A DNA stretch of 64,000 nucleotides from Labilithrix sp. (GTDB lineage: Bacteria; Myxococcota_A; Polyangia; Polyangiales; Polyangiaceae), in the NCBI GenBank assembly GCA_019637105.1, contig JAHBWF010000014.1:22317-86316 (forward strand), given 5' to 3'. The translations under genes and the position numbers were made by a program. Of the stretch, positions 5,192-19,349 are shown piece after piece. Below the pieces are notes generated by a model, which was given only the letters and a program-made list of their open reading frames with translations, searched no databases and had not been told where the DNA came from. The number at the start of each line of letters is the position of its first letter. Position 1 is the stretch's first letter.

Positions 5192-5767
5192 TCAGAAGAA
5201 CCCGGGGCTCGAGCCGCGGCGCGGCCGGCCCACGAAGCGCCGCACGACGATGCGCTTGCCGCCCTCGTGCGGGACGAGCTCGACGCTGTCGCTCAGGCGC
5301 GCCACCGCCCCGAGGCCCGCGCCGATCCCGCCGCGGCCGAAGACGCGGGCGGGATCGAGCTTTCCGTGGGTGTCGTAGCCGTCGCGGAGGCTGCCGGCGA
5401 GATCGAACGGCGGCGTCTCGTCCTCGGCGACGATCGTGATCCCCCGGAGGCGCCCTCCCACCGCGCGCGGCTCGTCGCGCTCCGTCAGCGAGAGATCGAT
5501 GTGCCCGCGCCGGCCGTACTTCAGGATGTTCGACGCGAGCTCCGACACGACGATCGCCAGCTCCTCGATCACCTCGCGCTCGAAGCCGATGCGCGTCGCG
5601 AAGGCGCGGAGGATGGTCCGCGCGGCGAAGACCGCGGACTCGTGCGCGACGACGCACCGGACGGACGCGGGCGCGTCCTTCATCGACGACGCGGGCTCGA
5701 GCCGCGAAGAGCGCCGTCCGCCGGAGCACGCCCTGAGCCCATCGTGAGGAGACATGCTAGCACTCAT
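5192..5767 (-). CDS. RsbT-like serine kinase / HATPase partner-switch protein
   Basis: GHKL-fold ATPase of the RsbT/RsbW class. The N box is EELAIVVSELASNILKYG, with the catalytic Glu and Mg-binding Asn, and a Gly-rich lid GRGGIGAGLGAV follows. It would bind ATP and phosphorylate STAS-domain proteins. The start is at 5767, preceded by GGGAGGACG as ribosome-binding site; an internal Met29 is possible and would remove a poorly conserved extension. It lies 28 bp downstream of the RsbR gene and is the last gene of a four-gene minus-strand operon, so RsbR is its likely partner. A second RsbT lies at 15105. Confidence 0.85.
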   Translation of the reverse strand: MSASMSPHDGLRACSGGRRSSRLEPASSMKDAPASVRCVVAHESAVFAARTILRAFATRIGFEREVIEELAIVVSELASNILKYGRRGHIDLSLTERDEPRAVGGRLRGITIVAEDETPPFDLAGSLRDGYDTHGKLDPARVFGRGGIGAGLGAVARLSDSVELVPHEGGKRIVVRRFVGRPRRGSSPGFF

Positions 5768-5795: not shown

Positions 5796-6449
5796 TCAAC
5801 CCTCGCGCCCCGCCAGGCGCCAGTCGTCGCGGTGGATGTACTGCTCCACGTACCCTTGGAGGGCGTTCCGCATCGTGCGGTGCGTGACGACCCCCGAGAG
5901 ATCGACGCCCATGTGGATGATCGTCTGCGCGATCGCCGGGTTGATCCCGGTGAGGAGGCAGTTCGCGCCGAGGAGCCGGACCGCGCGCGCCATCCGGAGG
6001 AAGTGATCGGCGGTCCCCGTGTCCATCACCTGGATCCCCGTGATGTCGATGATGGCGCAGTCGGCCTTCTTGCTGACGATCGCGCTGAGGAGCGCCTCGG
6101 TCATCTCCGCGCTGCGCGTCGTGTCGAGCACGCCGACCACCGGGAGGCACAGCACCCCCTCCCAGACCTCGATGATCGGCGTCGAGAGCTCGCGGATCGC
6201 GGCGCGCTGCACCTCGATCATCGCCAGCTTCTCCTCGAGCTCGCGCTGGTAGGTCGCGCTGCGCTCGCGCTCGCGCCCGAGCGAGGCGATCATCTCGTTG
6301 ATACCGTCGAAGAGCGTGCTGATCGCGTGGTCCTGGGGCAGGTCGCTCTTCAGGCGGACGCTGTAGTCGCCGTCGCCCACGTCGGCGGCGACGAGCAGGA
6401 TGTCCGCGATGCGCTCGAGCATCTGCGAGGCGAGGATGGCGTCGGTCAT
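5796..6449 (-). CDS. RsbR-type stressosome protein (HAMP-like + STAS)
   Basis: 217 residues. Residues 15-60 resemble a HAMP helix pair, 65-88 form a coiled stalk (YQRELEEKLAMIEVQRAAIREL), and 89-200 are a STAS domain. The two phospho-threonine positions of Bacillus RsbR appear as Thr144 in VMDTGTADHF and Thr176 in IAQTIIHMG. The N-terminal module has no globin or PAS sensor, so input probably comes through protein contacts. The start is supported by GGAGG, 6 bases upstream, overlapping the stop of the preceding gene. Its STAS half is almost identical to the protein at 11955-12611 (see findings). Confidence 0.9.
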   Translation of the reverse strand: MTDAILASQMLERIADILLVAADVGDGDYSVRLKSDLPQDHAISTLFDGINEMIASLGRERERSATYQRELEEKLAMIEVQRAAIRELSTPIIEVWEGVLCLPVVGVLDTTRSAEMTEALLSAIVSKKADCAIIDITGIQVMDTGTADHFLRMARAVRLLGANCLLTGINPAIAQTIIHMGVDLSGVVTHRTMRNALQGYVEQYIHRDDWRLAGREG

Positions 6450-6455
6450 CGCGCG

Positions 6456-7025
6456 CTACCTCCAGGTCATGTCGAGGCGAACCTCGGCGGGGCAGGGTGT
6501 CGCGAGCGACCAGCCCGAGATCTTGAGCTCGACGTCCTTGGCGCCGACGGAGCGCAGCGCGAAGACGCCGAAGCCGCCGGCGACGGGCCCCGCGTGGAGG
6601 TACCCCTCGACGTCACGCAGGTGGGTGACGAGGTGACGCTCGTCGACCTGCTCCGTCTCCATCCGCCCGCACCGGTTGTCGCGCGCCCATAGATCGGGCG
6701 CCTTCTTGCAGAACACCGCGGGGGTCATCACGCGCATCAAGAGCTTGAGGAAGCTGTTGGTCGCGGCCTCGGCGATGAACGTGCCGCAGTTCCGCAGCGC
6801 GTCGTACGCCTTCGCCTCGTCGTTCGGGTGCAGCTTGGCGATGGCGTCGTAGAGCACGCTGATCGTCTTCAGCGGATACCACGCCATCTTGTCGTACGCG
6901 CTCCGCTCGCTGCTCACGTCGTCGGGGAGGGTCGAGTACATCCGTTCGCGATCCGCCTCTTTGAAGCTGTCGATGTAGTCCATACAGCCGAGGATCAGAT
7001 AACCCCGGATCACCTCTTGTCCCAT
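6456..7025 (-). CDS. Conserved protein, possibly of the DUF2378 / TIGR02265 myxobacterial family
   Basis: 189 residues starting at the ATG at 7025, which has an excellent Shine-Dalgarno GGAGGTG seven bases upstream; open sequence further upstream lies inside the next gene and should be ignored. The protein has an alpha-helical first part with WYPLKTISVLYDAI (49-62), a segment KLLMRVMTPAVFCKKAPDLW, and a beta-rich C-terminus (VAGGFGVFALRSVG, VELKISGW). WYPL followed by helices, then an SVGxxxxELKxxGW-like end recalls the Myxococcus paralogue family TIGR02265; I am not certain. It lies between the HMGR-like gene and rsbR with 6-22 bp gaps, so is cotranscribed with them. Confidence 0.72.
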   Translation of the reverse strand: MGQEVIRGYLILGCMDYIDSFKEADRERMYSTLPDDVSSERSAYDKMAWYPLKTISVLYDAIAKLHPNDEAKAYDALRNCGTFIAEAATNSFLKLLMRVMTPAVFCKKAPDLWARDNRCGRMETEQVDERHLVTHLRDVEGYLHAGPVAGGFGVFALRSVGAKDVELKISGWSLATPCPAEVRLDMTWR

Positions 7026-8238: not shown

Positions 8239-8507
8239 TCCTTTACTTGGTATTCGATTGGCAAATGATGAGGGCGCTTGTCGTTATCCTGATTCCGTTG
8301 TCTTTCAAATTAATAAGCTCGGCTTGACATCGGTCTCCAGGGCATTCATTCTGAACGAGACTCGCTAGAGTCCGGCCGAAGGCGCCCTGAGATGGGCAGA
8401 CCCCGGCACACGTCATTAGGCACGATCGGTATACACGACACCGATTGACCTAGCGTCATTTTTGTTCTGCGTGATGACGTGCGCATGAACCTGGATTGCC
8501 AACTTTC
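8239..8507. other. Intergenic low-GC patch with candidate promoter
   Basis: This 269-bp stretch between two divergent genes is the most A/T-rich part of the first 20 kb (for example TCTTTCAAATTAATAAGC). I see no gene beyond very short frames. It holds a TTGACA at 8324-8329 followed 17 bases later by CATTCT, a weak sigma-70-like pair pointing toward the FAD oxidoreductase gene. Confidence 0.5.
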
Positions 8508-9990
8508 ATGACCAAAGAAGCCACTGTTGCTCGCCGCAGGATTTTGCAGGGGATCGCGGCCGTCGCGGTCGTCGGCTTCGATCCCGTTCGAAGGACGTGG
8601 CTGACCGAGGCCGTGGCCGGTCGCCCCCTCACGCGACTGCCGCGCCTCGACGGGCAGCTCCTCACCGATCCGGGCTCGCTGGCCGCCGCCGGGCAGGACT
8701 TCGGCCGCTACGTCCGTCGCGCTCCGATCGCCGTGCTGAGGCCCGGCTCGATCAACGACGTCGTCGAGATGGTCCGCTACGCGAAGCAGCACAGGCTCCG
8801 GATCGCGATGCGCGGTCAGGGTCACACCACGCACGGGCAGGCGCAGGTCGAGGCGGGCATCGTCATCGACTCGTCGAGCCTCTCGAGCATCCAGGTCAAC
8901 GCGAGCGACGCGATCGTCGGCCCCGGCGCCACGTGGCGCGAGATCCTCGCGGCCACCCTCCCGCGCGGCCTCACCCCGCCGACGCTCCCGAACTTCATCG
9001 ACATCACGATCGGCGGAAACGTCGCCGGCGGGGGCATCGGCGGCGCCCGCACCGACACGGCTAGCGGTCGTCGACAACGTCCTTCGAGCTCGACGTCGTC
9101 ACGGACACGGGCAGCTGCGCCGTTGCTCGGCGACCCAGAACGCGGTCCTGTTCAACGCGGTCCTCGGCGGCCTGGGACAGTTCGGCATCGTCGTCCGCGC
9201 GCGCATCAAGCTCCTGCCCGCGAAGCAGCTCGCGCGCCTCTACATCCTGCAGTACCCCGACGTCGGAGCCTTCCTCGACGACGCGCGCGTCCTCGCGCTC
9301 GACGAGCGATTCGACCACCTCGAAGGGCAGATCAACGCCGACGCGACCGGCCAGTACGGCGCCGTGACGATGTTCGCGGTCAAGTACTACAACCCCAACG
9401 CCCCGCCCTCCGACGGGGCGCTCCTCGCGGGCCTCGATCACGACGGGCAGGAGATCCAGGACATCCCCTACGCCGCGTTCGTGCACCGGCTCGATCCGAT
9501 CATCGACATGATCAAGGCCGTCGGCGCCTGGGCGCTGCCGCACCCGTGGTTCGACATCTTCATGCCCGAGTCCACGGTCGAGACGTTCGTCGCCGAGACG
9601 CTCGCCACGATCACCGCCGAGGACACGGGCAACGGGAACGTGCTCCTCTACCCGCTCCGCCGGAGCAAGTTCAAGCGGCCGTTCCTCCGCGTCCCGCAGC
9701 AGAACGAGGTCTTCTACCTCTACGACGTCCTGCCGTTCGCGGCGCCGATCCCCGCCGCCGTCGACCAGTGGGTCGCGCGCAACACGGCGTGGCTCGCCCG
9801 CGGTCGCGACCTCGGCGGCAAGCGCTACAACATCGGCTCCGCCAACCTCACGCGTCAGGACTGGCGGAAGTACTTCTCGCCGGTCTGGCCGGCGGTGCTC
9901 CTCGCCAAGCTCGCCTTCGATCCGACGAACATCCTGACGCCCGGTCAAGGGATCTTCCCCTGGGGTAGGCCCGTCGACTGCGACGACTGA
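8508..9990 (+). pseudogene. Tat-exported FAD-binding oxidoreductase (cytokinin-dehydrogenase-like), frame disrupted
   Basis: The protein begins MTKEATVARRRILQGIAA, a twin-arginine signal. A PCMH-type FAD domain follows: MRGQGHTTHGQAQ (His-linked flavin motif), VGPGATWREIL, TIGGNVAGGGIGG. At about 9060 the frame breaks. The expected continuation (VVDNV, then ELDVVTDTG, then CSATQNAVLFNAVLGGLGQF) is found but spread over different frames: a shift near 9060, another near 9084 and another near 9112. From 9113 to 9990 a single frame gives the C-terminal substrate domain, ending FDPTNILTPGQGIFPWG. The rest is intact, so this is either a very young pseudogene or a local sequence error. Convergent with, and overlapping by 46 bp, the prenyltransferase gene. 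Confidence 0.8.
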
Positions 9991-11105
9991 CGGCGCGCGA
10001 CGCGGGCGGGGAGCGGCTGCTCCTCGCTCGCGGCCGCGGCCGCCGCGGCGAACAGCTCCGTCGCGACGTAGAACGTCAGGCGATCGGTGCCCGTGCGGAG
10101 CGAGACGTACGTGAGGAGCCCCGACGCCGCGTCGAGCTCGCGCGGCGCGAGGCTCTGGAGCGCGGCCTCGAAGACCGCCGGCGAGTGCCCGCGCGACTGC
10201 ATGTACGAGACGACGCGCTCGCGCGCGACGGCGTCGTTCGGCGCGTAGAACCGGATCGGGATCTGGATCGCGACCTCCTTCGGCGTCGGCTCCCCCTCGA
10301 CGAACGAGAGGTACGTGCAGAGCGGGAAGGTCTCGCTGGCCTCGCGCGCGCCGAGCATCGCGCGGCAGAACGCGGTGACCTCACCCTCCTCGTAACCGGG
10401 GCGGATGGCCGCCATGCGCTCGAGGTGCTCGACCGTCACGCCGCGCTGGTAGAAGTAGACCTTCACGCGCGCGGCGCCGCCGGCGGCGAGGTCGAGGGCG
10501 AAGTAGCGGATCTCGTCGTCGCTCGTCTGGCGTTGGACCGCCTCGAGGAGCGACGGCCACGCCGAGCCGAAGCCGAGCGTGCGCATCGCGGACTCGACGA
10601 GCTCGAAGGAGCGCTCCTTGCCGGCGATCTGCGGGTTGAAATAGGCCTTCACCTCCGGCGGGCCGGACAGGCGCGCGGCGTGCCAGAGCGCGAACCGCGC
10701 GCTCGCGACGTCGGGCAGGAAAATATCGCGCACCCGCTCGAAGCGGGTCAGGTCGCCCCCGTCTTCGGCCAGGCGCCGGGTCAACGCCAGCGCGGCGTCG
10801 CGCATGTCCGCGAGCGTCGGCGATCCGCCGGTCGTGCTCTGCGCTTCGACGAGGAACCGCACGCTGGGGGGCTCGTTCGGCGCGAGGGCGAGCGAGAACT
10901 CGTACGGCGAGTGATCGTCGCCGATGTCCGACGGCCACGCCGGCGCGCTCGGGATCTTCGCCGAGCCCCACGGGAGGAGCATCGCGTCGAGGCGCGAACG
11001 TGCTGAAGCCGGGCACGGAGTGTCGTAGACTGCGTGCCAGAGTCGTTCGAGCCGCTCCGACGCGAGCGCGTGATAGGTCGTGGATGAATCGTTGCTGCTA
11101 TTCAT
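9945..11105 (-). CDS. DMATS-type aromatic (indole) prenyltransferase, ABBA fold
   Basis: 386 residues from the ATG at 11105 (GAGG six bases upstream); a GTG at 11165 in frame would add 20 residues. Features of dimethylallyltryptophan synthases: PYEFSLAL, carrying the Glu that deprotonates the indole, followed by VRFLVE; VKAYFNPQ, matching the K-x-Y diphosphate shield; FALDLA; and RVKVYFYQRG, matching R-x-K-x-Y. The family transfers a dimethylallyl group to tryptophan or a Trp-derived peptide without a DDxxD motif and is cytosolic. Bacterial members are fewer than fungal ones. The C-terminus is antisense to the end of the FAD oxidoreductase gene. Acceptor and regiochemistry cannot be deduced. 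Confidence 0.85.
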   Translation of the reverse strand: MNSSNDSSTTYHALASERLERLWHAVYDTPCPASARSRLDAMLLPWGSAKIPSAPAWPSDIGDDHSPYEFSLALAPNEPPSVRFLVEAQSTTGGSPTLADMRDAALALTRRLAEDGGDLTRFERVRDIFLPDVASARFALWHAARLSGPPEVKAYFNPQIAGKERSFELVESAMRTLGFGSAWPSLLEAVQRQTSDDEIRYFALDLAAGGAARVKVYFYQRGVTVEHLERMAAIRPGYEEGEVTAFCRAMLGAREASETFPLCTYLSFVEGEPTPKEVAIQIPIRFYAPNDAVARERVVSYMQSRGHSPAVFEAALQSLAPRELDAASGLLTYVSLRTGTDRLTFYVATELFAAAAAAASEEQPLPARVARRQSSQSTGLPQGKIP

Positions 11106-11257
11106 CGCCGCCTCGTTCTTGAAGGTCTCGCCGCCGTGCGGTACGTGATCACCGGTGGCTTTCACCTTTTATCGCGCTCTCCCCGATTTCCCGCATCACC
11201 CCAAAAGGGTAAGCCGAACAATCTCCTTCGAGATAAATTCTTTTCCTCGGTGAGCGC

Positions 11258-11884
11258 GTGAAAGGAATCGTGGGAGGCGAGCTGACCTTTCTGATCGTCG
11301 AGGACGAGCGCCTCGTCGGGCTCGCGCTCTCGCGCATGTTCGCGAGCTTCGGCCGCGTCGAGGTGGTCACGACGCTCGACGCCGCCCGCAAGGTCCTCGA
11401 CGATCGCCGGTTCGACGCGCTGATCGTCGACATCAAGCTGCCGGACGGCTCCGGGTTCGACGTCGTCGCCTACGCGCGCGAGCGCTCCCCGGACACGGAG
11501 GCCCTCGTGCTGTCCGGGAGCGTCGACGCCGGCCGGCTCTCCACGGCCTTCACGCTCGGCGTGACGTACCTCGTCAAGCCCGCGTCCCACACGCAGCTCC
11601 AGGACTTCGCGAAGCGCACCCGCGCGCGCCGCCTGAAGCACTCGGGCTGGCTGCGGGGCGTCATCGCCATGTGGGTGGCCCGCTACGGGCTGACCCCCGC
11701 CGAGGAGGCCGTGCTGGCGCTCGCGATCGACGGGCGGCCGCGGCTGGAGATCGCAGAACGACGCGACGTCTCCCCGTCGACGCTGAAGAAGCAGGTGCAG
11801 TCGCTCCTCGCGAAGACGGGCGACGCGACGCTCGAGAGCGCCGCCAACCGCGCCCTCCGCGCCGCCCTCGAGGCCAAGCCCTGA
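11258..11884 (+). CDS. Response regulator with C-terminal helix-turn-helix
   Basis: About 208 residues from a GTG at 11258 (a second GTG lies four codons on). The receiver domain has the acidic pair VEDE, the phospho-acceptor Asp in LIVDIKLPDGSGF, the Ser switch in VLSGS and the Lys in YLVKPAS. The C-terminal about 60 residues (YGLTPAEEAVLALAIDGRPRLEIAERRDVSPSTLKKQVQSLLAKTG) form a LuxR/NarL-like helix-turn-helix, so the protein probably binds DNA. It lies first in the 11-19 kb signalling block, divergent from the prenyltransferase. No histidine kinase is adjacent; the CheA-like kinase at 17.8 kb is the closest candidate donor. Confidence 0.88.
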   Translation: MKGIVGGELTFLIVEDERLVGLALSRMFASFGRVEVVTTLDAARKVLDDRRFDALIVDIKLPDGSGFDVVAYARERSPDTEALVLSGSVDAGRLSTAFTLGVTYLVKPASHTQLQDFAKRTRARRLKHSGWLRGVIAMWVARYGLTPAEEAVLALAIDGRPRLEIAERRDVSPSTLKKQVQSLLAKTGDATLESAANRALRAALEAKP

Positions 11885-11954
11885 CCGGCCGCCTCCTCGG
11901 GATCGAGGAGACGCCGAACGGGTCGAGCGCGGCTCGCCCTTCCCGCTCGGTGGC

Positions 11955-12611
11955 TCAGCGGCCGTCGCTCTCGTCGTCCCGCTCGTCGAGGAACCGCTGG
12001 ATGTAACGCTGGAGCGCGTTGCGCATCGTGCGGTGCGTGACGATGCCGCTCAGATCGACGCCCATGTGGATGATCGTCTGGGCGATCGCCGGGTTGATCC
12101 CGGTGAGCAGGCAGCTCGCGCCGAGCAGGCGGACGGCGCGCGCCATCCGCAGGAAGTGGTCGGCGGTGCCGGTGTCCATCACCTGGATGCCGGTGATGTC
12201 GATGATCGCGCAGTCCGCCTTCTTCTCGACGATCGCGCTGAGGAGCGCCTCGGTCATCTCCGCGCTGCGCGTGCTGTCGAGGACGCCGACGACCGGGAGG
12301 CACAGGACGCCCTCCCAGACCTCGATGATCGGCGTGGACAGCTCGCGGATCGCCGCGCGCTGGACCTCGATCATCGCGAGCTTCTCCTCCAGCTCGCGCT
12401 GGTACGTCGCGCTCCGTTGCTGCTCCGCCGCGAGCGAGCCGATCATCTGGTTGATGCCCTCGTAGAGGGTCGAGACCGGGTGATCCGGGGGGAGATCGCT
12501 GCGCAGGCGCGTCGTGTAGTCGCCGCTCCCCACGTCGGCCACGACGAGGAGAACGTCGGCGATGCGCTCGAGCATCGGGTCGGCCAGCTCGTCCTCAGTC
12601 ACCCCGGCCAT
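11955..12611 (-). CDS. RsbR-type stressosome protein, second copy
   Basis: 218 residues with the same HAMP-like stalk and STAS architecture as the protein at 5796-6449. From about residue 65 to 200 the two match at nearly every position, including the phospho-Thr motifs VMDTGTADHF and IAQTIIHMG, whereas the N-terminal about 60 residues and the last 15 differ more. GGAGG precedes the start at 12611. The C-terminus is acidic (DERDDESDGR). It probably co-assembles with RsbS, encoded next to it on the same strand (12709-13158), and with either RsbT. Confidence 0.9.
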   Translation of the reverse strand: MAGVTEDELADPMLERIADVLLVVADVGSGDYTTRLRSDLPPDHPVSTLYEGINQMIGSLAAEQQRSATYQRELEEKLAMIEVQRAAIRELSTPIIEVWEGVLCLPVVGVLDSTRSAEMTEALLSAIVEKKADCAIIDITGIQVMDTGTADHFLRMARAVRLLGASCLLTGINPAIAQTIIHMGVDLSGIVTHRTMRNALQRYIQRFLDERDDESDGR

Positions 12612-12708
12612 GGCGGATCCTCCAGTGGGTCATCGGGCCCTCGAGCCTCGCATGCAACATCGTGGAAGCCAAGATTGTCTTCTGCCTTTCGAGCGCGGGC
12701 GCGCCGCG

Positions 12709-13158
12709 TTACTTGGGGTCCCGCGCGCCCTCCTTCGAGGGCCGGACGCGGCTACGCTTCGCCCCGCCGACGCCCGGCGTCGAGCGCTTTCCGTCGAGGC
12801 GGCCGATCCCGAGCGACTTGAAGGCCTCCTCCAGGGTGAGCGCCGTGCGGACCACGCTCATGTCGATGCCCATGGTCTGCAACGTGACGGCGACCTGGGC
12901 GTTCATCCCGCACATGATGCTGTGCGCGCCCATGAGGCGGGCCGACGCCGCGAGCCGTGAGAGGACGGCGCAGAGGTGGCTGTCGACCATCCATATGCCC
13001 GTCAGGTCGATGATGAGCCCCTCCGCGCCGGTGTCCCGTATGGTGTCGAGCACCTGATCGACGAGACGCTCGGCGATCGCGTCGCTGATCTCGCCCTGGA
13101 GCGGGACGAGGACGTGATTCCACACGTTGATCACGGGTAGGCGGTCGCTGTCGCTCAT
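12709..13158 (-). CDS. RsbS-like STAS-domain protein
   Basis: Single STAS domain of about 120 residues plus a basic C-terminal extension (KRSTPGVGGAKRSRVRPSKE), longer than typical RsbS. The phospho-serine motif of RsbS (VDS) is present as Ser60 in WMVDSHLC, preceded by IIDLTGI. The start at 13158 is set by GAGG upstream; the frame is open further upstream but that part has no conserved content. In stressosomes RsbS forms the scaffold with RsbR and sequesters RsbT until phosphorylated. It lies 97 bp upstream of the second RsbR on the same strand and is divergent from the Hpt gene. Confidence 0.88.
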   Translation of the reverse strand: MSDSDRLPVINVWNHVLVPLQGEISDAIAERLVDQVLDTIRDTGAEGLIIDLTGIWMVDSHLCAVLSRLAASARLMGAHSIMCGMNAQVAVTLQTMGIDMSVVRTALTLEEAFKSLGIGRLDGKRSTPGVGGAKRSRVRPSKEGARDPK

Positions 13159-13234
13159 GGATCCTCGCCGGCTACGTTCGCACGACTCGTACCGTCCCGT
13201 CGAGACGGCCGTTTCCTGTGATAAGGTGAGTTCC

Positions 13235-13516
13235 ATGGAATTGCGGGAAACGTTCCGTGCGCCGTTCCTGCAGATGGCCTGGCAGCGCCACAGCCGGATC
13301 ACCGAGCTCGTCGACCGTGGAGAGGTCGCCGAGCTCCGGTCGGCCGCGTCGGAGCTGCACTGCCTCTCGGGAGAGGCGAGCATGCTCGCCTACGAAGACG
13401 TGGCCGAGGTCGCGCGCGTGGCCGAGAAGGCCGCGCGGGAGAGCGACCACGGACGCCTCGTCGGGCTCGTCGCCGACCTGCGGGCGGCCATTCAAGCGGT
13501 GGAGAACGGCGGATGA
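13235..13516 (+). CDS. Hpt (histidine phosphotransfer) domain protein, 93 aa
   Basis: A four-helix Hpt protein with the motif LHCLSGEASML, where His42 is the likely phospho-acceptor (family pattern HxLKGxAxxLG). Start at the ATG at 13235, preceded by AAGGTGAG. The stop overlaps the next start (ATGA at 13513), so it is translationally coupled to the CheB-like gene. It could relay phosphate between the CheA-like kinase and one of the three receiver domains in this block. Confidence 0.85.
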   Translation: MELRETFRAPFLQMAWQRHSRITELVDRGEVAELRSAASELHCLSGEASMLAYEDVAEVARVAEKAARESDHGRLVGLVADLRAAIQAVENGG

Positions 13517-14613
13517 TCCGCGTCGTGATCGTCGACGACTCGTCGCTCTCGCGGATGATCCTGACCAAGATCCTCGAGGCCGACGGGGACATCAAGGTCG
13601 TGGGCGAGGCCGTGAACGGCTTCGAGGCCGTGCCGAAGATCCAGGAGCACAAGCCGGATCTCGTCACGATGGACATCGACATGCCGGGGCCGAACGGCCT
13701 CGAGACCATCCAGCGCGTGATGCACAGCTGCCCGGTGCCCATCCTCGTCGTCACCGGCGAGCGCCTCGGCCCCGAGTCGGACATCGGCTTCCGCGCGATC
13801 CAGCTCGGCGCGCTCGATTTCATGGCGAAGCCGTCGATCGGCGACACGCCGAGCATGACCCGCCTCCGGCGGCAGGTCCGGACGCTCGCGGGCGTGCCCG
13901 TCTTCCTCCACACCGACGAGCGCGACGATCAAGGGTCCACGCGCACGCCGCCCTTGCCCGAGGCGCCGCCGTTCTCGCTCGTCGCGATCGCGTCGGGCAC
14001 GGGCGGGCCGAAGGCCGTCGCCACGATCCTGCAGGCGCTGCCCGACGACTTCGGCGCGCCGATCGTGATCGTCCAGCAGATGCCGGAGAAGTTCGGCCCC
14101 GCGTTCGCCAAGTACCTCCAGGGCCTCACGCCCCTGCGGATCACGATGGTCGAGCCGATGCCGAAGGACTGCGTGCCCGGCGACGTGCTCATGTCCGGCT
14201 CCGACGACGCCCACGTGTACTTCCCGCGGCGCGGGGTCGTCGTCGGGATGCACGCCGAGCCGTACGCGATGCACCGCCCCTCGGCGACGGTCATGATGCG
14301 CTCGATCGCCGAGACGTACGGCCCCGACGCCGTCGGCGTCATCCTCTCGGGCTCGGGCGACGACGGGCTCGAGGGCCTCGCCGCGATGCGCGCCGCCGGC
14401 GCGCTCACGCTGGCGGAGAGCCCGAGCTCGGCGGCGATCGCGGAGCTCCCCGCGGCCGCGCTCAAGAGCGGCGCCGCCTCGCGCGCGCTCCCCGCCCAGA
14501 TGATCGCCAACTGCCTCATCAGCGCGATGACCGCGATGAACCGGAAGACGACGGCCCCGCCGAGCAGCGCCGCGCTGCTCGAGTACTCCCAGAACGACGA
14601 CGTCGGACGCTGA
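13513..14613 (+). CDS. CheB-like protein with receiver and inactive-looking methylesterase domain
   Basis: 366 residues. The receiver domain (1-125) keeps DD at 8-9, phospho-acceptor Asp54 (VTMDIDMPG), Thr81 and Lys107. A linker leads to a CheB methylesterase domain (about 155-345). The family motif GASTGGP, with the catalytic Ser just before TGG, reads IASGTGGP here: Gly162 stands at the Ser position and a Ser is one residue early. The catalytic-His motif QHMP reads QQMP (Gln189). The Asp is retained (GSGDDG, Asp284), as is the PGD loop. So the fold is kept but two of three catalytic residues are gone. Cotranscribed with the Hpt gene; a role as a phosphorylation-dependent binding protein is more likely than receptor demethylation. 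Confidence 0.88.
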   Translation: MIRVVIVDDSSLSRMILTKILEADGDIKVVGEAVNGFEAVPKIQEHKPDLVTMDIDMPGPNGLETIQRVMHSCPVPILVVTGERLGPESDIGFRAIQLGALDFMAKPSIGDTPSMTRLRRQVRTLAGVPVFLHTDERDDQGSTRTPPLPEAPPFSLVAIASGTGGPKAVATILQALPDDFGAPIVIVQQMPEKFGPAFAKYLQGLTPLRITMVEPMPKDCVPGDVLMSGSDDAHVYFPRRGVVVGMHAEPYAMHRPSATVMMRSIAETYGPDAVGVILSGSGDDGLEGLAAMRAAGALTLAESPSSAAIAELPAAALKSGAASRALPAQMIANCLISAMTAMNRKTTAPPSSAALLEYSQNDDVGR

Positions 14614-14628
14614 CCGGACGGAGACGAG

Positions 14629-15045
14629 CTACCCGTGCTTCTTCAGGAAAGGCGTCAGGCGATCGGCGAGCGTCGCGCCGTCCTTCGGGACCGCGCCGCG
14701 CGCGCCGCTCCGCCGGACCAGCGTCCCGACCTCCTCCTCCGCGCGATCGGAGAAGATCAGCACGGGGAGCGCGTCGACGTGCGGAGAGATCGCCGCGACG
14801 AGCTCCTCGTCGCTGACGCCGGGGTACGTCGCGTCGACGAGCAGCAGGTCGGGCTTCTCCCGCGCGACGGCCGCCTCGATGTCTCGAGGGTCGACGACGG
14901 TGCTCACCTCGAGACCGCGCGCCGAGAGCGCATGAACCACGACGGCGCGGACGATCGCGCTGTCATCGACGAGAAGGATCTTTTGCGTGGTCACTCTTCG
15001 ACGACGATACGCGAACCACTGCGCGTTGTGTTCTTGTCCCGTCAT
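14629..15045 (-). CDS. Single-domain response regulator (CheY-like)
   Basis: One receiver domain and no output domain: LLVDDSAIVR, phospho-acceptor Asp71 (LLLVDATYP), Ser in LIFSDR, Lys in AVPKDG. The first 17 residues may be untranslated; a GTG at 14994 begins just before QKILLVDD and gives a more usual length. It ends 15 bp from the convergent CheB-like gene and is divergent from rsbT at 15105. Probably a phosphate sink or protein-binding output for the CheA-like kinase. Confidence 0.87.
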   Translation of the reverse strand: MTGQEHNAQWFAYRRRRVTTQKILLVDDSAIVRAVVVHALSARGLEVSTVVDPRDIEAAVAREKPDLLLVDATYPGVSDEELVAAISPHVDALPVLIFSDRAEEEVGTLVRRSGARGAVPKDGATLADRLTPFLKKHG

Positions 15046-15104
15046 GACGCGAGCTCGCGGGGCGGGCGTCGCGCCCCCCGCGCGACGACGGCGGCGGTGA
15101 TCGG

Positions 15105-15515
15105 ATGACGACGACGGCGTCCGACGCGCTCGACATCGCGATCAAAATCGAGGGCGACATCGTCCGCGCTCGCGGGGCCGGGCGCGACATGTGCCGCGAG
15201 CTCGGGCTGAGCGAGATCAATCAGGTCAAGGTCGCGACCGCGATCAGCGAGCTCGCGCGCAACATCTTCACCTACGCGAAGACCGGGAACATCTCGCTCC
15301 GCCGGCTCTCGGCGCCGCGAGCCGGCATCGAGGTCGTCGCGACGGACAACGGTCCGGGGATCGCGGACGTGAAGCTCGTCCTCAGCGGCACCTACAAGTC
15401 GAAGACCGGGATGGGAAAGGGGCTCCTCGGCACGAAGCGGCTCGTGGATTTCTTCGAGATCGACAGCAGTCCCGAGCGCGGCACCCGCGTCGTCCTCCGC
15501 AAGTTCATCCGCTGA
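15105..15515 (+). CDS. rsbT: RsbT serine kinase
   Basis: 136 residues, the size of RsbT. N box VATAISELARNIFTY with Glu49 and Asn53, then DNGPGIAD (81-88), lid GMGKGLLGTKRLVDFFEIDS and the C-terminal RGTRVVLRKF. RsbT phosphorylates RsbS and RsbR, is released, and activates the RsbU phosphatase. The next gene (15516) begins directly after the stop codon and encodes exactly such a phosphatase, which strongly supports the role. The sequence is closer to classical RsbT than the other HATPase at 5192. Confidence 0.92.
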   Translation: MTTTASDALDIAIKIEGDIVRARGAGRDMCRELGLSEINQVKVATAISELARNIFTYAKTGNISLRRLSAPRAGIEVVATDNGPGIADVKLVLSGTYKSKTGMGKGLLGTKRLVDFFEIDSSPERGTRVVLRKFIR

Positions 15516-16841
15516 ATGAACGCGCTCGGGGAAGAAGAGGCAGGGCGTACCGGCGAGCTCGCGGCGAAGCTCCGGCGGCTCCGCGCGTTCGGCGCGCTGC
15601 GTCGGACCCTCCGCGTCACCGAGGACGCCACGGAGATCGCGGCCCTGGCGCGCCGCTTCGCGCTCGACGTCCTCGGCCTCGCGCGCTTCGCGATCTACTG
15701 CGCCGAGAAGGACGAGGCGCCGCTCGACCTCCTCGCGCCCGCGCCCGACGCGACCGGCCTCCCCGAGAGCATCGAGCGCACGGAGCCGCTCGTCGCCGAT
15801 CTCGAGACGTCCGCCGTCCTGCGCGACGCCGGGATCCTCGAGGCCTTCGCGGGCGAGCCCGGCGACCGGGTGGTGCTCGCGCTGCGCGGCTCGCCCGAGC
15901 AGCTGATCGGGATCGTCCTCGTCGCGGGGACGTCGCTCGACCAGGAGATGCTCGACGAGCTCGTCTTCGACGTCGAGAGCGCGCTCGCGGCCCGCATGAT
16001 CACGCGGCTCCGCGCCGAGGAGCTCGCGGTGCTCGAGATCCAGGAGCGTGAGCTCGTCGGGCTCCTGCGCGACGTCGAGGCCCGCGACGCGATCATCCAG
16101 CAGGACCTCGAGGAGGCCCGCCTCTTCCAGCGCAAGATGCTCGGCGAGCCTCCCGAGGTGCCCCACGCCTCCGTCGAGGTCGTCTATCAGCCGCTCGGGC
16201 TCGTCGGCGGCGACCTCTACGCGGTCTCGCTCGACGGCGACAAGCTTCGCCTCTTCGTCGCGGACGCCACGGGGCACGGGGTCCGCGCCTCGCTGACGAC
16301 GATGTTCATCAAGAGCGGCTACGAGGCCGTCCGCCACTCGGCCCCGGATCCGGCCCTCCTGCTGGCCGCGCTCAACGACACCATCGCACACACCTACCGG
16401 AGCGCGGAGATGCTCTTCTCGGCCGCCTGCGTCGACGTCGACCTGACGAGCGGCCGCGTGCTGGTGGCCTCGGCGGCGCACCCGGCCGTCTGCGTCGTCC
16501 GGGCGGGCGAGGCGACGTTCCTCGAGGGGGGCGGGGCCTTCCTCGGCCTCAGGGCCGGGATGAAGTACACGGTCAGCGAGACCTCCCTCGCGGACGGGGA
16601 CGCCGTGTACCTGTTCACCGACGGCTTCGTCGAGGCCCGGAAGCAGAACGAGCAGTTCGGCGAGGAGCGCCTCGAGGCGGTCATCCTCGACGCCCACCGG
16701 AGCGGCGGGCTGGCCGGCGAGCGGATCGTCGCGGCGGTGACCGAGTTCCTCGACGGCGGCGCCCTGGAGGACGACGGGACGGTCGTCGGCGTGCGGTTCC
16801 GGCGGTCCGGGGCCGGGGACCCGGGCGCCGAGGCGCCCTAA
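15516..16841 (+). CDS. RsbU-like PP2C phosphatase with N-terminal GAF-like sensor
   Basis: 441 residues. Residues about 25-180 look like a GAF domain; about 180-225 are a helical linker (ELAVLEIQERELVGLL) of the kind RsbT binds; the rest is a SpoIIE/PP2C phosphatase with VGGDLYAV, VADATGHG (Asp250), AHPAVCVV, LFTDGFVEA and the C-terminal DDGTVVGVRF. It would dephosphorylate a STAS-domain anti-anti-sigma protein. ATG follows the rsbT stop with no gap. No RsbV or sigma factor gene is in the window; the STAS-like protein at 17447 is the nearest possible substrate. Confidence 0.9.
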   Translation: MNALGEEEAGRTGELAAKLRRLRAFGALRRTLRVTEDATEIAALARRFALDVLGLARFAIYCAEKDEAPLDLLAPAPDATGLPESIERTEPLVADLETSAVLRDAGILEAFAGEPGDRVVLALRGSPEQLIGIVLVAGTSLDQEMLDELVFDVESALAARMITRLRAEELAVLEIQERELVGLLRDVEARDAIIQQDLEEARLFQRKMLGEPPEVPHASVEVVYQPLGLVGGDLYAVSLDGDKLRLFVADATGHGVRASLTTMFIKSGYEAVRHSAPDPALLLAALNDTIAHTYRSAEMLFSAACVDVDLTSGRVLVASAAHPAVCVVRAGEATFLEGGGAFLGLRAGMKYTVSETSLADGDAVYLFTDGFVEARKQNEQFGEERLEAVILDAHRSGGLAGERIVAAVTEFLDGGALEDDGTVVGVRFRRSGAGDPGAEAP

Positions 16842-16922
16842 TCCGTTGAAAATGTTGGAATCGCCTAATCGTCCCCGTCAGGGATGGTCATACGCCTCAT
16901 TGGCGGTTAGCATTCGAGCTGG

Positions 16923-17450
16923 ATGAGGGCCGAGTGTCCTGAGAGCGACGATGCCCTCTTCGAGCTGCGCTTCGCCCCGAGCGTCGCGCTCGTCTCGACG
17001 GTTCGTCGCTTCGTGAGCGATTTCTACGACGAGCTCCTCAAGGATCGCGACGCGAGCCACCGGCTCGGCATGGCGACCCACGAGATGCTCGAGAACGCGG
17101 TGCACTACTCGTCGGACCACCGCTCGGAGCTCGTGGTCTCGCTGCACCGCGTGAACGGCCAGTTCCTCGTCACGATCCGGACGACCAACCGCGCCACCGA
17201 CGAGCGCCTCTCCAAGGTCCGGCGGGCGCTCGACGAGGTCGTGACCGCGCCGGACCCGATGGACCTCTACAACCAGCTCGTTCGCCGAGCGGCCAAGCGC
17301 ACGGACGGCGGCTCCGGCCTCGGACTGCGTCGGATCCGCGCCGAGGCCGACCTGGCGCTCTCGTACTCGATCGAAGGCGACACCCTCGTCCTGACGGCGG
17401 AGGGTCGCTTCCCACCGCGCCCAGAACCGCAACTCACGGAGTCACGATGA
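16923..17450 (+). CDS. SiaB-like / anti-sigma-type HATPase kinase
   Basis: 175 residues: an N box ATHEMLENAVHYS, a beta segment (LVVSLHRVNGQFLVTIRTTN), a helical insert (DERLSKVRRALDEVVTAPDPMDLYNQLVRRA) and a lid GGSGLGLRRIRAEA. The long helical insert between N box and lid, ending in YxQLxR, is characteristic of the SiaB/DUF6272 kinases rather than RsbW. ATP-dependent phosphorylation of the next gene product is expected. It overlaps that gene by 4 bp (ATGA). An 81-bp gap separates it from the RsbU-like gene. Confidence 0.8.
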   Translation: MRAECPESDDALFELRFAPSVALVSTVRRFVSDFYDELLKDRDASHRLGMATHEMLENAVHYSSDHRSELVVSLHRVNGQFLVTIRTTNRATDERLSKVRRALDEVVTAPDPMDLYNQLVRRAAKRTDGGSGLGLRRIRAEADLALSYSIEGDTLVLTAEGRFPPRPEPQLTESR

Positions 17451-17848
17451 CCGCTGTCGACATCCCTCGCATCGACGCAAACGATCTGCGTGCCGCATCG
17501 AGCTACCTCGACGGCAACCTCTCGTTGCAGTTCGCGGGGAGCGCCGACTCGCGGTCTCAGGGGGCGATCGAGGCGATGCTCGGGCGCGTGCACGCCGAGG
17601 CGCTCCGTCTCGGCGTCCCCGAGGTGTCGGTCGACTTCCGCGACTGCGACTTCGTGAACTCCTCCTGCTTCAAGGCGTTCGTCGTCTGGCTCGAGCAGAT
17701 CCAGGAGCTCGAGACGGAGCAGCAGTACCGGCTCCGCTTCTACTCCGACGACACCAAGGCCTGGCAGAGGAGGAGCCTGCAGGCGCTCTCGTGCTTCGCG
17801 ATCGAGCTCGTCCACATCGAGTCGAAGCCCAATCGTGGCGGCAGTTGA
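17447..17848 (+). CDS. SiaC-like / STAS-like phosphoprotein
   Basis: 133 residues with VSVDFRDCDFVNSSCFKAF followed by VVWLEQIQELE and RLRFYSDD. The N-S-S-x-x-K pattern, then helix and a (W/F)Y-S/E-DD strand, resembles SiaC (DUF1987: FNTSSAK...WYYEEDD), the substrate of SiaB. A STAS-type anti-anti-sigma protein is the alternative. Ser68 or Ser69 (in VNSSC) is the likely phosphorylation site. It is coupled on both sides: ATGA overlap with the kinase gene upstream and a 14-bp overlap with cheA downstream. Confidence 0.75.
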   Translation: MTAVDIPRIDANDLRAASSYLDGNLSLQFAGSADSRSQGAIEAMLGRVHAEALRLGVPEVSVDFRDCDFVNSSCFKAFVVWLEQIQELETEQQYRLRFYSDDTKAWQRRSLQALSCFAIELVHIESKPNRGGS

Positions 17849-19349
17849 TCTCCCGACCAGCATCGTCGCCCAGTTCCGGGCTGCGAGCATCGAGCGTCTC
17901 GGGCGCATCGAGACCGCGTGGGCGGCGCTCACGCAGCGCGTCGGCACGGCGGAGGGCGAGCGCGACCTGTTCCACGACGTCCATACGCTGAAGGGCGAGG
18001 CGCGCCTCGTCGGGTTCGCGGACGTCGTCCTCATCACCCAGCGCCTCGAGGACCTCCTTTTGGCCGCGCGCCGCCGGCGCTACCGCGTGACGGAGGACGT
18101 CGACGTCCTCGCCACGATGGCGATCCAGTTCATCCGCATGCTGCTCCGGAAGCGCGCCGGCGCGTCCCAGGGCGGGATCGACATCAACGGCTTCCTCAAG
18201 CAGATCGACGAGGTCCTCGTCGAGTGGCCGCGGCAGTCGGAGACGCCCGACTCGAGCGGCGCGTACACGATGCGCCCGACGGAGGGCGGCAAGATCTCGC
18301 TCGCGGTGCGTCAGCGCCTCGGGAGCGCGGCGACCCAGGTGTACCTCGAGCTGCTCGCGTCCAACAGCCCGCGCCTCCGCCGCGCCTGGGAGATCCTCGC
18401 CGGCGAGCTCGCGCAGCTCGACGCGGTCGCGCTGATGCCGCTCGTGCGCCGTCACGCGGCCTCGGCGAAGGACCTGGCCGTCGAGCTCGGCAAGGAGATC
18501 GACGTCTCGATCGACGGGCCCGAGGTCAAGGTCGGCGTCGAGATCCTCGACACCATCCACGGCGCGCTCCTGCACACGCTCCGCAACGCCGTCGATCACG
18601 GGATCGAGGCGCCCGACGCCCGCGTCGCGGCGAACAAGCCCCGTCGCGGGAACATCGGCGTGCGCTTCGGCGTCGAGGGGGACTCGATCGGGCTGACCGT
18701 CCAGGACGACGGCGACGGCATCGATCTCGACGCCATTCGCCGCCGCGCCGAGAAGCTCGGGCTGCTCTCGCCGGAGGACGCCCTGGCCGCCCCGGACGCG
18801 ACCCTCCTCGATCTCGCCTTCGCCCCGGGCTTCTCGGTCCGCGAGTCGGTGAGCACCATCTCCGGGCGCGGGATCGGCCTCGACGCCGTGCGCGCGACCA
18901 TCGAGCGCCTCGGCGGGACGATCACGCTCGAGTCGAAGCGCCACGTCGGCGTCACCGTCGCGCTCCGGCTGCCGCTGTCGCGCCGCATCGTCGAGGTGCA
19001 TCGGCTGCCGTCGACGCAGCCGGGCCTGGTCTTCGCGGTCCCGACGACCTGGACCGTGCGGACCGAGCGACGCCCGGACGCGATCGATCCCGCCGCCTTG
19101 ATGGGCCACGGCCGCACGCACTCGGGCCACTCGTCCGCGACGCTCGCGTACCTCGTGCTCTCGCGCGACGGCGACGACTACCCCATCGTCGTCGGGGGCT
19201 CGGTCTCGCGCGTCGGCGCGGCGCGGCTCTGCCCGACGTCCCCCGACGACGGGCTCGAGGTCGTCACCATCGACGACGAGCCCGTCATCCTCATCCGCCC
19301 CGACACGTTCTTCCCGCCCGCCAGCAGCCGTCGCCCCGGCCCGAGCTGA
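17835..19349 (+). CDS. CheA-like histidine kinase
   Basis: 504 residues. N-terminal Hpt domain with HDVHTLKGEARLVG, then a linker, a short dimerisation region, and the CheA ATPase: HTLRNAVDHGIEAP (N box), DDGDGID (G1), FAPGFSVRE (F box), SGRGIGLDAV (G2), followed by a roughly 110-residue CheW-like end that is weakly conserved. No separate P2 domain is obvious, and it is shorter than E. coli CheA (654 aa). Cytosolic. No MCP or CheW gene is present in this window, so its activating input is unclear; it is translationally coupled to the SiaC/STAS-like gene, which may control it. Confidence 0.9.
   Translation: MAAVDLPTSIVAQFRAASIERLGRIETAWAALTQRVGTAEGERDLFHDVHTLKGEARLVGFADVVLITQRLEDLLLAARRRRYRVTEDVDVLATMAIQFIRMLLRKRAGASQGGIDINGFLKQIDEVLVEWPRQSETPDSSGAYTMRPTEGGKISLAVRQRLGSAATQVYLELLASNSPRLRRAWEILAGELAQLDAVALMPLVRRHAASAKDLAVELGKEIDVSIDGPEVKVGVEILDTIHGALLHTLRNAVDHGIEAPDARVAANKPRRGNIGVRFGVEGDSIGLTVQDDGDGIDLDAIRRRAEKLGLLSPEDALAAPDATLLDLAFAPGFSVRESVSTISGRGIGLDAVRATIERLGGTITLESKRHVGVTVALRLPLSRRIVEVHRLPSTQPGLVFAVPTTWTVRTERRPDAIDPAALMGHGRTHSGHSSATLAYLVLSRDGDDYPIVVGGSVSRVGAARLCPTSPDDGLEVVTIDDEPVILIRPDTFFPPASSRRPGPS

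Follow-up and report, generated by a model that had tools for sequence, protein, structure and literature searches.

The window analyzed here, a 64,000-nucleotide stretch of the genome of Labilithrix sp. (bases 22317-86316 of contig C46, in a draft genome of 8.45 Mb that is 91.5% complete), contains a block of eleven genes that combines a stressosome (RsbR, RsbS and RsbT) and a SiaABC-like partner switch (a PP2C phosphatase, a SiaB-like kinase and a SiaC-like STAS protein) with a CheA-type histidine kinase. We propose that the stressosome, the phosphatase, the SiaB-like kinase and SiaC, encoded upstream of a CheA that is not accompanied by a receptor gene, form one cascade in which CheA would be controlled through the phosphorylation state of SiaC. 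Judging from sequence, we put the probability of this reading at slightly less than 0.6; the signal would likely pass from the stressosome to RsbT, RsbU, SiaC, CheA and, finally, the receivers. An earlier note on this DNA had offered two directions of control. The first, that STAS/HATPase switching controls CheA, is favored by our comparisons, because SiaC is the commonest neighbor of the CheA clade described below while the phosphatase input varies, and because SiaC is also found fused to a histidine kinase.

Linkage of SiaC to a distinct CheA clade

By its sequence, the CheA of the block belongs to a clade of its own that is mainly myxobacterial. The clade was counted at 26 members, after removal of G415 (a normal CheA with a CheW domain) and without a second match in G483, which is a contig-end fragment. 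SiaC is encoded within 8 kb of CheA in 20 of these 26 members. In 13 of them (the window, four genomes of the same genus, three loci of G332, two of G473, and G329, G330 and G382) SiaC is co-oriented with CheA and located at most 20 bp upstream of it, and this contiguity spans three families (f1, f10 and f11); in seven others, six Polyangium-type genomes and G447, SiaC lies 5.9-7.6 kb from CheA on the opposite strand. The locus contains a PP2C gene in 17 and a SiaB gene in 16 of the 26 members, and 12 have a receiver that is either fused to CheA or encoded no more than 200 bp from it. At locus L150 (3250-5070, genome G321) the clade CheA carries a C-terminal fused receiver domain. A scan of the genome contigs with the CheA alignment contained, among its best 80 matches, only L017-L020 as clear clade members; the 76 others, ordinary or distant CheA relatives covering 1.33 Mb in total (56 loci of >15 kb and 20 of <=15 kb), served as a control set, and none of them had SiaC, SiaB or RsbT, most of these loci being from outside the Myxococcota, a setting in which the sensitivity of the SiaC profile may be lower. 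In the CheA tree, which comprised 69 of the 73 rows (G447, G338, G485 and one G473 copy were left out because they lack the N-box pattern), the clade of 22 had modest support (82/13), which became 98/77 once a SAR324 CheA (L025) was added. A search with the single SiaC sequence gave matches in 7 of 282 genomes of the phylum, and a profile search in 74 of 318 genomes of the class; the loci examined around SiaC are part of those from these 74 genomes, and the gene caller called no SiaC gene in some, so that it was not used for the linkage counts.

The conservation of the block among genomes of the same genus goes beyond chance. Ten of the eleven genes (RsbR, RsbS, Hpt, CheB, REC, RsbT, RsbU, SiaB, SiaC and CheA) are present in the same order and on the same strands in five of the 13 same-genus genomes, its own included, the others being G483, G484, G480 and G481. 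Their identities range from 58 to 98%, with CheA going from 94 to 66% across these four genomes, and the REC-HTH gene was found only in the G483 and G484 loci, not in those of G480 and G481. Scattering of the genes, a possibility that the earlier note had raised, was not seen in the relatives with the block. Class-wide searches found CheA and a close RsbT together in six of the 13 genomes (its own included) and neither of them in seven, RsbT-like matches at E 1e-20 to 1e-21 in G482, G486 and G487 being counted as not RsbT. The sixth genome, G485, has RsbU-RsbT-REC beside CheA in a different arrangement on a 3.1-kb contig. The nearest named CheA matches among those listed are from Labilithrix sp. 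ACE_MYX5 (93% across the 214 CheA residues that its contig contains) and Myxococcales bacterium 68-20 (76%).

On C46, 33 kb or more separate the block from each contig end, and searches of the genome contigs for receptors (methyl-accepting chemotaxis proteins, MCP), CheW, CheR and Sigma70_r2 gave no match anywhere on C46. The absence of these genes from the block, which the earlier note had pointed out, therefore holds for the whole contig, and an MCP/CheW cluster directly outside the window was looked for with the same outcome. Hence, the kinase is not encoded together with MCP, CheW and CheR on C46, as in a canonical chemosensory system, nor is there a sigma factor in or beside the operon, as in SigB/RsbV-RsbW systems. 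Elsewhere in the draft genome the same searches found 9 CheW, 3 MCP, 7 CheR and 58 sigma-70 region-2 matches, and contigs C79 (MCP, CheW, CheR) and C271 (CheW, CheR) resemble ordinary chemosensory clusters.

The CheA itself has a P1 domain with its histidine, P3 and P4, P3 being seen in the structural model only. The phospho-acceptor His50 is invariant in all 24 CheA sequences of an alignment with 39 invariant columns, and by sequence the phospho-acceptor histidine and the ATP-site motifs are intact. Over residues 146..494 the model aligns with residues 293..671 of the CheA structure 1b3q; for the N-terminal part, the VIA comparison of the model includes no Hpt structure, to which we attach no weight. 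The P5/CheW domain is counted as a core CheA domain (PMC10782961). Neither a CheW-domain Pfam match nor a match in the hmmsearch comparison was found for P5 of the block CheA, and hhalign gave an alignment of 75 columns at a probability of 30%; the alignment of the model with 1b3q and 2ch4 extends through their P5. In sequence, P5 is also the least conserved domain, with a mean identity to the window of 33%, compared to 50% for P4 and 58% for P1.

The REC-CheB protein is probably a pseudo-methylesterase, as deduced from an alignment with the CheB structure 1a2o, in which Ser-164, His-190 and Asp-286 form the catalytic triad. Among the six CheB copies counted (seven of the 13 alignment rows are receiver-only and were left out), the Ser-164 position is Gly in all six and the His-190 position Gln in five, while Asp-286 is kept in all six; the block protein thus has Gly, Gln and Asp in place of the Ser-His-Asp triad. 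Since a Ser directly precedes the Ser-164 position in four of the six copies, the loss of activity is likely rather than proven. The label CheB-like given earlier was therefore right as to family, with the qualification that catalytic residues are replaced, which is expected when there are no methylated receptors. The receiver domain of the protein retains the usual acidic residues, and the single-domain Hpt protein has kept its histidine in 5/5 copies.

By sequence, a search of solved structures gave no clear relative for SiaC (best E 0.04), none for SiaB to E 1 and none for RsbT to E 0.01, so that the SiaC assignment rests on the model. This model has a STAS fold, and the VIA structural comparison lists Pseudomonas SiaC first; Foldseek places RsfB/SpoIIAA-type chains above SiaC. 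The phospho-site is predicted to be Ser72/Ser73 in the motif NSSCFK; the SiaC of P. aeruginosa has the motif NTSSIK with phospho-T68 (PMC7647112). A Ser or Thr is present at the Ser72 position in 17 of 20 CheA-linked SiaC proteins, and the loci of 14 of these 17 include SiaB as well as PP2C genes. As in SiaABC systems, a PP2C, a SiaB-type kinase and a SiaC-type phosphoprotein are encoded in what strand and spacing indicate to be one operon. A SiaD-type diguanylate cyclase does not follow; the gene after SiaC is CheA, and none of the eleven genes gave a GGDEF match. That SiaC acts directly on histidine kinases is suggested, though not proven, by fusion proteins: contig C102 of the same genome (L163, 10951-12894, minus strand) encodes a 647-residue SiaC-HisKA-HATPase-REC protein with SiaC at its N-terminus, and a database search gave 15 proteins of this type, the query included. 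At another locus of this genome, L164, a SiaB-SiaC pair precedes a Ser/Thr kinase gene, which indicates that SiaC is not associated exclusively with histidine kinases. Units of SiaB, SiaC and a PP2C of ~825 amino acids occur in tandem, up to three in a row, at loci L240-L248 (G523-G528).

The proposed cascade and its alternatives

In the cascade that we propose, stress would release RsbT from the RsbR/RsbS scaffold, after which RsbT would bind and activate the RsbU-like phosphatase; RsbT has been reported to activate RsbU by ordering a helical linker (PMC12143880). The SiaB-like kinase would phosphorylate SiaC and the RsbU-like phosphatase would strip off that phosphate. Unphosphorylated SiaC might then bind the helical P1-P3 region of the CheA dimer and switch CheA on, by analogy with Pseudomonas SiaC, which when unphosphorylated activates the cyclase SiaD by binding to its coiled-coil stalk (PMC8457831). 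From His50 of CheA the phosphate would go to the receiver proteins of the block (REC, REC-CheB and REC-HTH), and the free-standing Hpt protein might act as a relay. In other genera, a HAMP- or PAS-phosphatase would drive the same back end instead of a stressosome. Beyond the gene content, we infer all of these steps. If the cascade is real, Ser/Thr partner switching and CheA phosphotransfer would be joined at a defined protein contact, and CheA would be seen to work without receptors, CheW or methylation, which would account for the replacements in the CheB active site and for the decayed P5. Moreover, stressosomes lacking a sigma factor would gain a concrete output that could be reconstituted from five purified proteins. 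More tentatively, and at somewhat less than even odds, these loci may represent a myxobacterial pathway class in which a SiaC-type partner-switch protein replaces the receptor-CheW array, a Ser/Thr-phosphorylated STAS subunit switches a receptor-free CheA, and varied sensors, the stressosome among them, enter at the phosphatase.

Several observations weigh against the cascade or limit its reach. The curated NCBIfam cut-offs were not reached for SiaA (53.8 of 700 bits) or SiaB (19.9 of 85 bits), and the best superfamilies of SiaB and SiaC, slr1658 (49.1 of 100) and slr1659 (24.6 of 100), are both below cut-off as well. In three CheA-adjacent SiaC proteins (two of G332 and that of G329) the residue matching Ser72 is Ala, and in one of the three neither serine is present, so that phospho-switching is not universal. 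The linkage counts are not independent, since the 26 clade members include five of the Labilithrix type and six Polyangium near-copies. SiaC was not found in six of the 26 clade loci; three of these six are on short contigs or at a contig end, and in G340, G341 and G342, where the locus is long enough, its absence is probably real. In G330 and at one G332 locus the SiaC-CheA pair stands without SiaB or PP2C in the examined locus, and G485, a genome that is 88% complete, gave no SiaC match despite having RsbT-RsbU beside a clade CheA. Finally, SiaB-SiaC pairs elsewhere are often found with Ser/Thr kinases or PP2Cs and without CheA, which indicates that SiaC has other outputs.

This last observation, together with the clade CheA members without SiaC, is what would be expected if two independent systems happened to be neighbors, the stressosome controlling SiaC for another target and CheA having an input of its own. 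We consider this unlikely, because the contiguity of SiaC and CheA is maintained in three families while the rest of the locus has changed, because the linkage within 8 kb is seen in 20/26 clade members versus 0/76 controls, and because the 4-bp overlap of SiaB with SiaC and the 14-bp overlap of SiaC with CheA are identical in G483 and G480. Comparably improbable is a flow in the reverse direction, in which CheA, driven by some other input, would phosphorylate receivers that feed the partner switch, like Shewanella che1 with CrsR-CrsA; the che1 locus does contain crsR and crsA (PMC9855816). However, the phosphatase and the SiaB-like kinase of the block have no receiver domain, and at four other scanned loci the phosphatase has its own HAMP or PAS input, which argues that it acts upstream. 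The second direction offered in the earlier note, that "CheA feeds the stressosome", likewise found no support, as the phosphatase has a weak GAF match and no receiver domain.

The MCP, CheW and CheR genes on other contigs, and the P5-like fold kept in the CheA model, might be taken to mean that the block CheA is an ordinary chemosensory kinase using MCP and CheW encoded elsewhere in the genome. This is quite unlikely given that Pfam does not detect P5, the least conserved of the domains, that the CheB catalytic residues are replaced, and that C46 has no CheW, MCP or CheR match. Still less probable is that SiaC binds CheA as a fixed subunit or inhibitor, with phosphorylation by SiaB having no effect or relieving inhibition. 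Whereas the three CheA-adjacent SiaC proteins without a Ser72 equivalent would fit such a role, the retention of Ser/Thr in 17 of the 20 CheA-linked SiaC proteins, 14 of them with SiaB and PP2C in the locus, speaks against it.

Stressosome, exchanged inputs and known systems

The RsbR and RsbS STAS proteins and the RsbT kinase that make up an RST stressosome are encoded together in the block, and the alignments contain the RsbS "VDS" and RsbR "DT" site motifs. RsbT (E <=1e-15) is present in 120 of the 318 genomes of the class. At the 24 best RsbT loci of other genera, RsbR-RsbS adjoins RsbT in 23, a second RsbT-like HATPase is present in 23, and no SiaB, SiaC or clade CheA was found within ~1.5 kb on each side (CheA matches of <100 bits set aside). 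Among the loci examined, RsbT is joined to a clade CheA only in the genus of the window.

Other genera have phosphatases with other inputs. At the one locus scanned each for Polyangium (L142) and G447 (L138) it is a HAMP-PP2C. In L142 the co-oriented genes ahead of it encode a cupredoxin-like protein with weak porin and multihaem matches, and in L138 they encode c-type cytochromes and a di-haem peroxidase. It is possible that in these two loci the HAMP-PP2C/SiaB/SiaC switch, placed after cupredoxin-, porin-like or cytochrome genes, is tied to extracellular electron transfer. G473 and G382 have a PAS-PP2C with a V4R protein nearby, and the co-oriented order in G473 is PAS-PP2C, SiaC, CheA, CheB. 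At L153 no N-terminal domain could be named for the phosphatase. Another locus, in G258 (L161, 2709-6924) and not placed in the clade, encodes a NIT-HAMP-Hpt-HATPase kinase followed by SiaB-SiaC-SiaB-PP2C; this protein joins a receptor to a CheA-like kinase and gave no CheW match.

In the RsbRST-RsbU system of Bacillus subtilis, RsbR, RsbS and RsbT operate with a PP2C. The block encodes the same proteins, including the PP2C that RsbT would activate (PMC12143880 for the RsbT-RsbU step), but its contig has no sigma-factor match, and RsbT shares an operon with the output genes and lies on the strand opposite to RsbS. In limiting the outputs of known stressosomes to SigB or a cyclase the earlier note was too narrow, because RSTX modules beside HisKA/REC proteins have been published (PMC9237108). 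In such loci, for example in Vibrio vulnificus, stressosome genes lie beside histidine kinase and receiver genes without SigB, as here (PMC9237108, PMC10014275). However, in RSTX loci a HisKA-type kinase follows the module, whereas in the block the RsbU-SiaB-SiaC partner switch lies in between and the kinase is of the CheA type. With SiaABCD of Pseudomonas aeruginosa the block shares the PP2C, the HATPase kinase and the STAS-fold phosphoprotein with an N-[ST]-S motif (PMC7647112, PMC8457831); the output of that system is the cyclase SiaD, while that of the block would be CheA and its input RsbT.

It is already known that STAS proteins are found near CheA and that stressosomes are found beside HisKA/REC proteins. 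CheS of Sinorhizobium/Agrobacterium, which consists of STAS only, binds CheA and comes from the same gene cluster (PMC12654446); that cluster has MCP, CheR, CheB and CheD, and the excerpts of the source mention no kinase/phosphatase pair for CheS. An anti-sigma-factor antagonist and a serine phosphatase occur with cheA in F7 stage-1 clusters (PMC7184735), and an anti-sigma-factor antagonist shares one cluster with cheA in Che1-CrsRA of Shewanella (PMC9855816). Unlike the block, both carry receptors, CheW, CheR and CheD. Among the titles listed from the open-licence PMC literature we found no description of a stressosome-CheA or SiaC-CheA link, or of a receptor-less CheA clade tied to SiaC; the excerpts of a review of STAS-only proteins do not mention CheA (PMC8256260), and those of PMC7522486 contain nothing on such a link.

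Organization and surroundings of the block

According to the list of open reading frames (ORFs) and a Pfam scan of the block proteins, all eleven genes are real ORFs with the expected domains (Table 1). This bears out the genes listed in the earlier note, as well as the overlaps of 4 bp at 13513, 4 bp at 17447 and 14 bp at 17835. The block reaches further than those eleven genes, as the window also contains an RsbW/RsbT-like HATPase and a second RsbR.

Table 1. Genes of the block and its extension, with window coordinates
Feature	Position	Strand	Evidence and remarks
RsbW/RsbT-like HATPase	5192..5683	-	HATPase_c_2 45.3 bits; kept beside RsbR in G480, G481
Second RsbR, short N-terminal part + STAS	5796..6449	-	STAS 48.5 bits; RsbR profile 422 bits
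REC-HTH response regulator	11258..11884	+	Response_reg 50.5 bits; GerE/Sigma70_r4_2 (HTH) below Pfam cut-off
RsbR	11955..12611	-	STAS 49.2 bits; identity 85-97% in 4 genomes
RsbS	12709..13158	-	STAS 45.2 bits (longer ORF 12709-13383); identity 81-94% in 4 genomes
Single-domain Hpt protein	13235..13516	+	Hpt 29.0 bits; start placed by conservation
REC-CheB protein	13513..14613	+	CheB_methylest 143 bits
Single-domain receiver (CheY-like)	14629..14994	-	Response_reg 46.7 bits (ORF 14629-15045)
RsbT, stressosome switch kinase	15105..15515	+	HATPase_c 37.1 bits; identity 80-92% in 4 genomes
RsbU/SiaA-like PP2C phosphatase	15516..16841	+	SpoIIE 131.3 bits; weak N-terminal GAF_3 17.7 bits, below cut-off
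SiaB-like Ser/Thr kinase (HATPase)	16923..17450	+	HATPase_c_2 29.5 bits, above cut-off; DUF6272 26.5, just under
SiaC-like STAS protein	17447..17848	+	no Pfam match; STAS fold in model; motif NSSCFK
CheA-type histidine kinase, P1 (His50), P3, P4, diverged P5, no P2	17835..19349	+	Hpt 40.2 bits; HATPase_c 55.3 bits

The order along the block is REC-HTH (+), RsbS-RsbR (-), Hpt-CheB (+), REC (-) and RsbT-RsbU-SiaB-SiaC-CheA (+), with two divergent pairs, RsbS-RsbR versus Hpt-CheB and REC versus the RsbT-to-CheA genes. These strand changes indicate several transcription units with two divergent starts, not one operon. The earlier description of CheA as "fused into" the partner-switching operon is therefore correct in the sense of operon membership, not in that of a protein fusion. 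The additional HATPase is 76% identical to its copy in L136, 66% to that in L137 and 34% to RsbT. The genome has five STAS matches, three of them in the window (two RsbR and one RsbS) and the others on C35 and C1.

Other genes lie between or beside the two RsbR genes. A FAD-linked cytokinin-dehydrogenase-like gene (8496-9990, plus strand) is split over two frames (FAD_binding_4 and Cytokin-bind), and at the same place in G483 there is a single open frame of 481 amino acids; the split reflects either a pseudogene or an assembly error. It adjoins a tryptophan dimethylallyltransferase-like gene (9945-11165, minus strand; Trp_DMAT 76.6 bits), which is itself situated between the two RsbR genes. 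Beside the second RsbR, 6456-7025 on the minus strand encodes a 189-amino-acid protein that has no Pfam or NCBIfam match.

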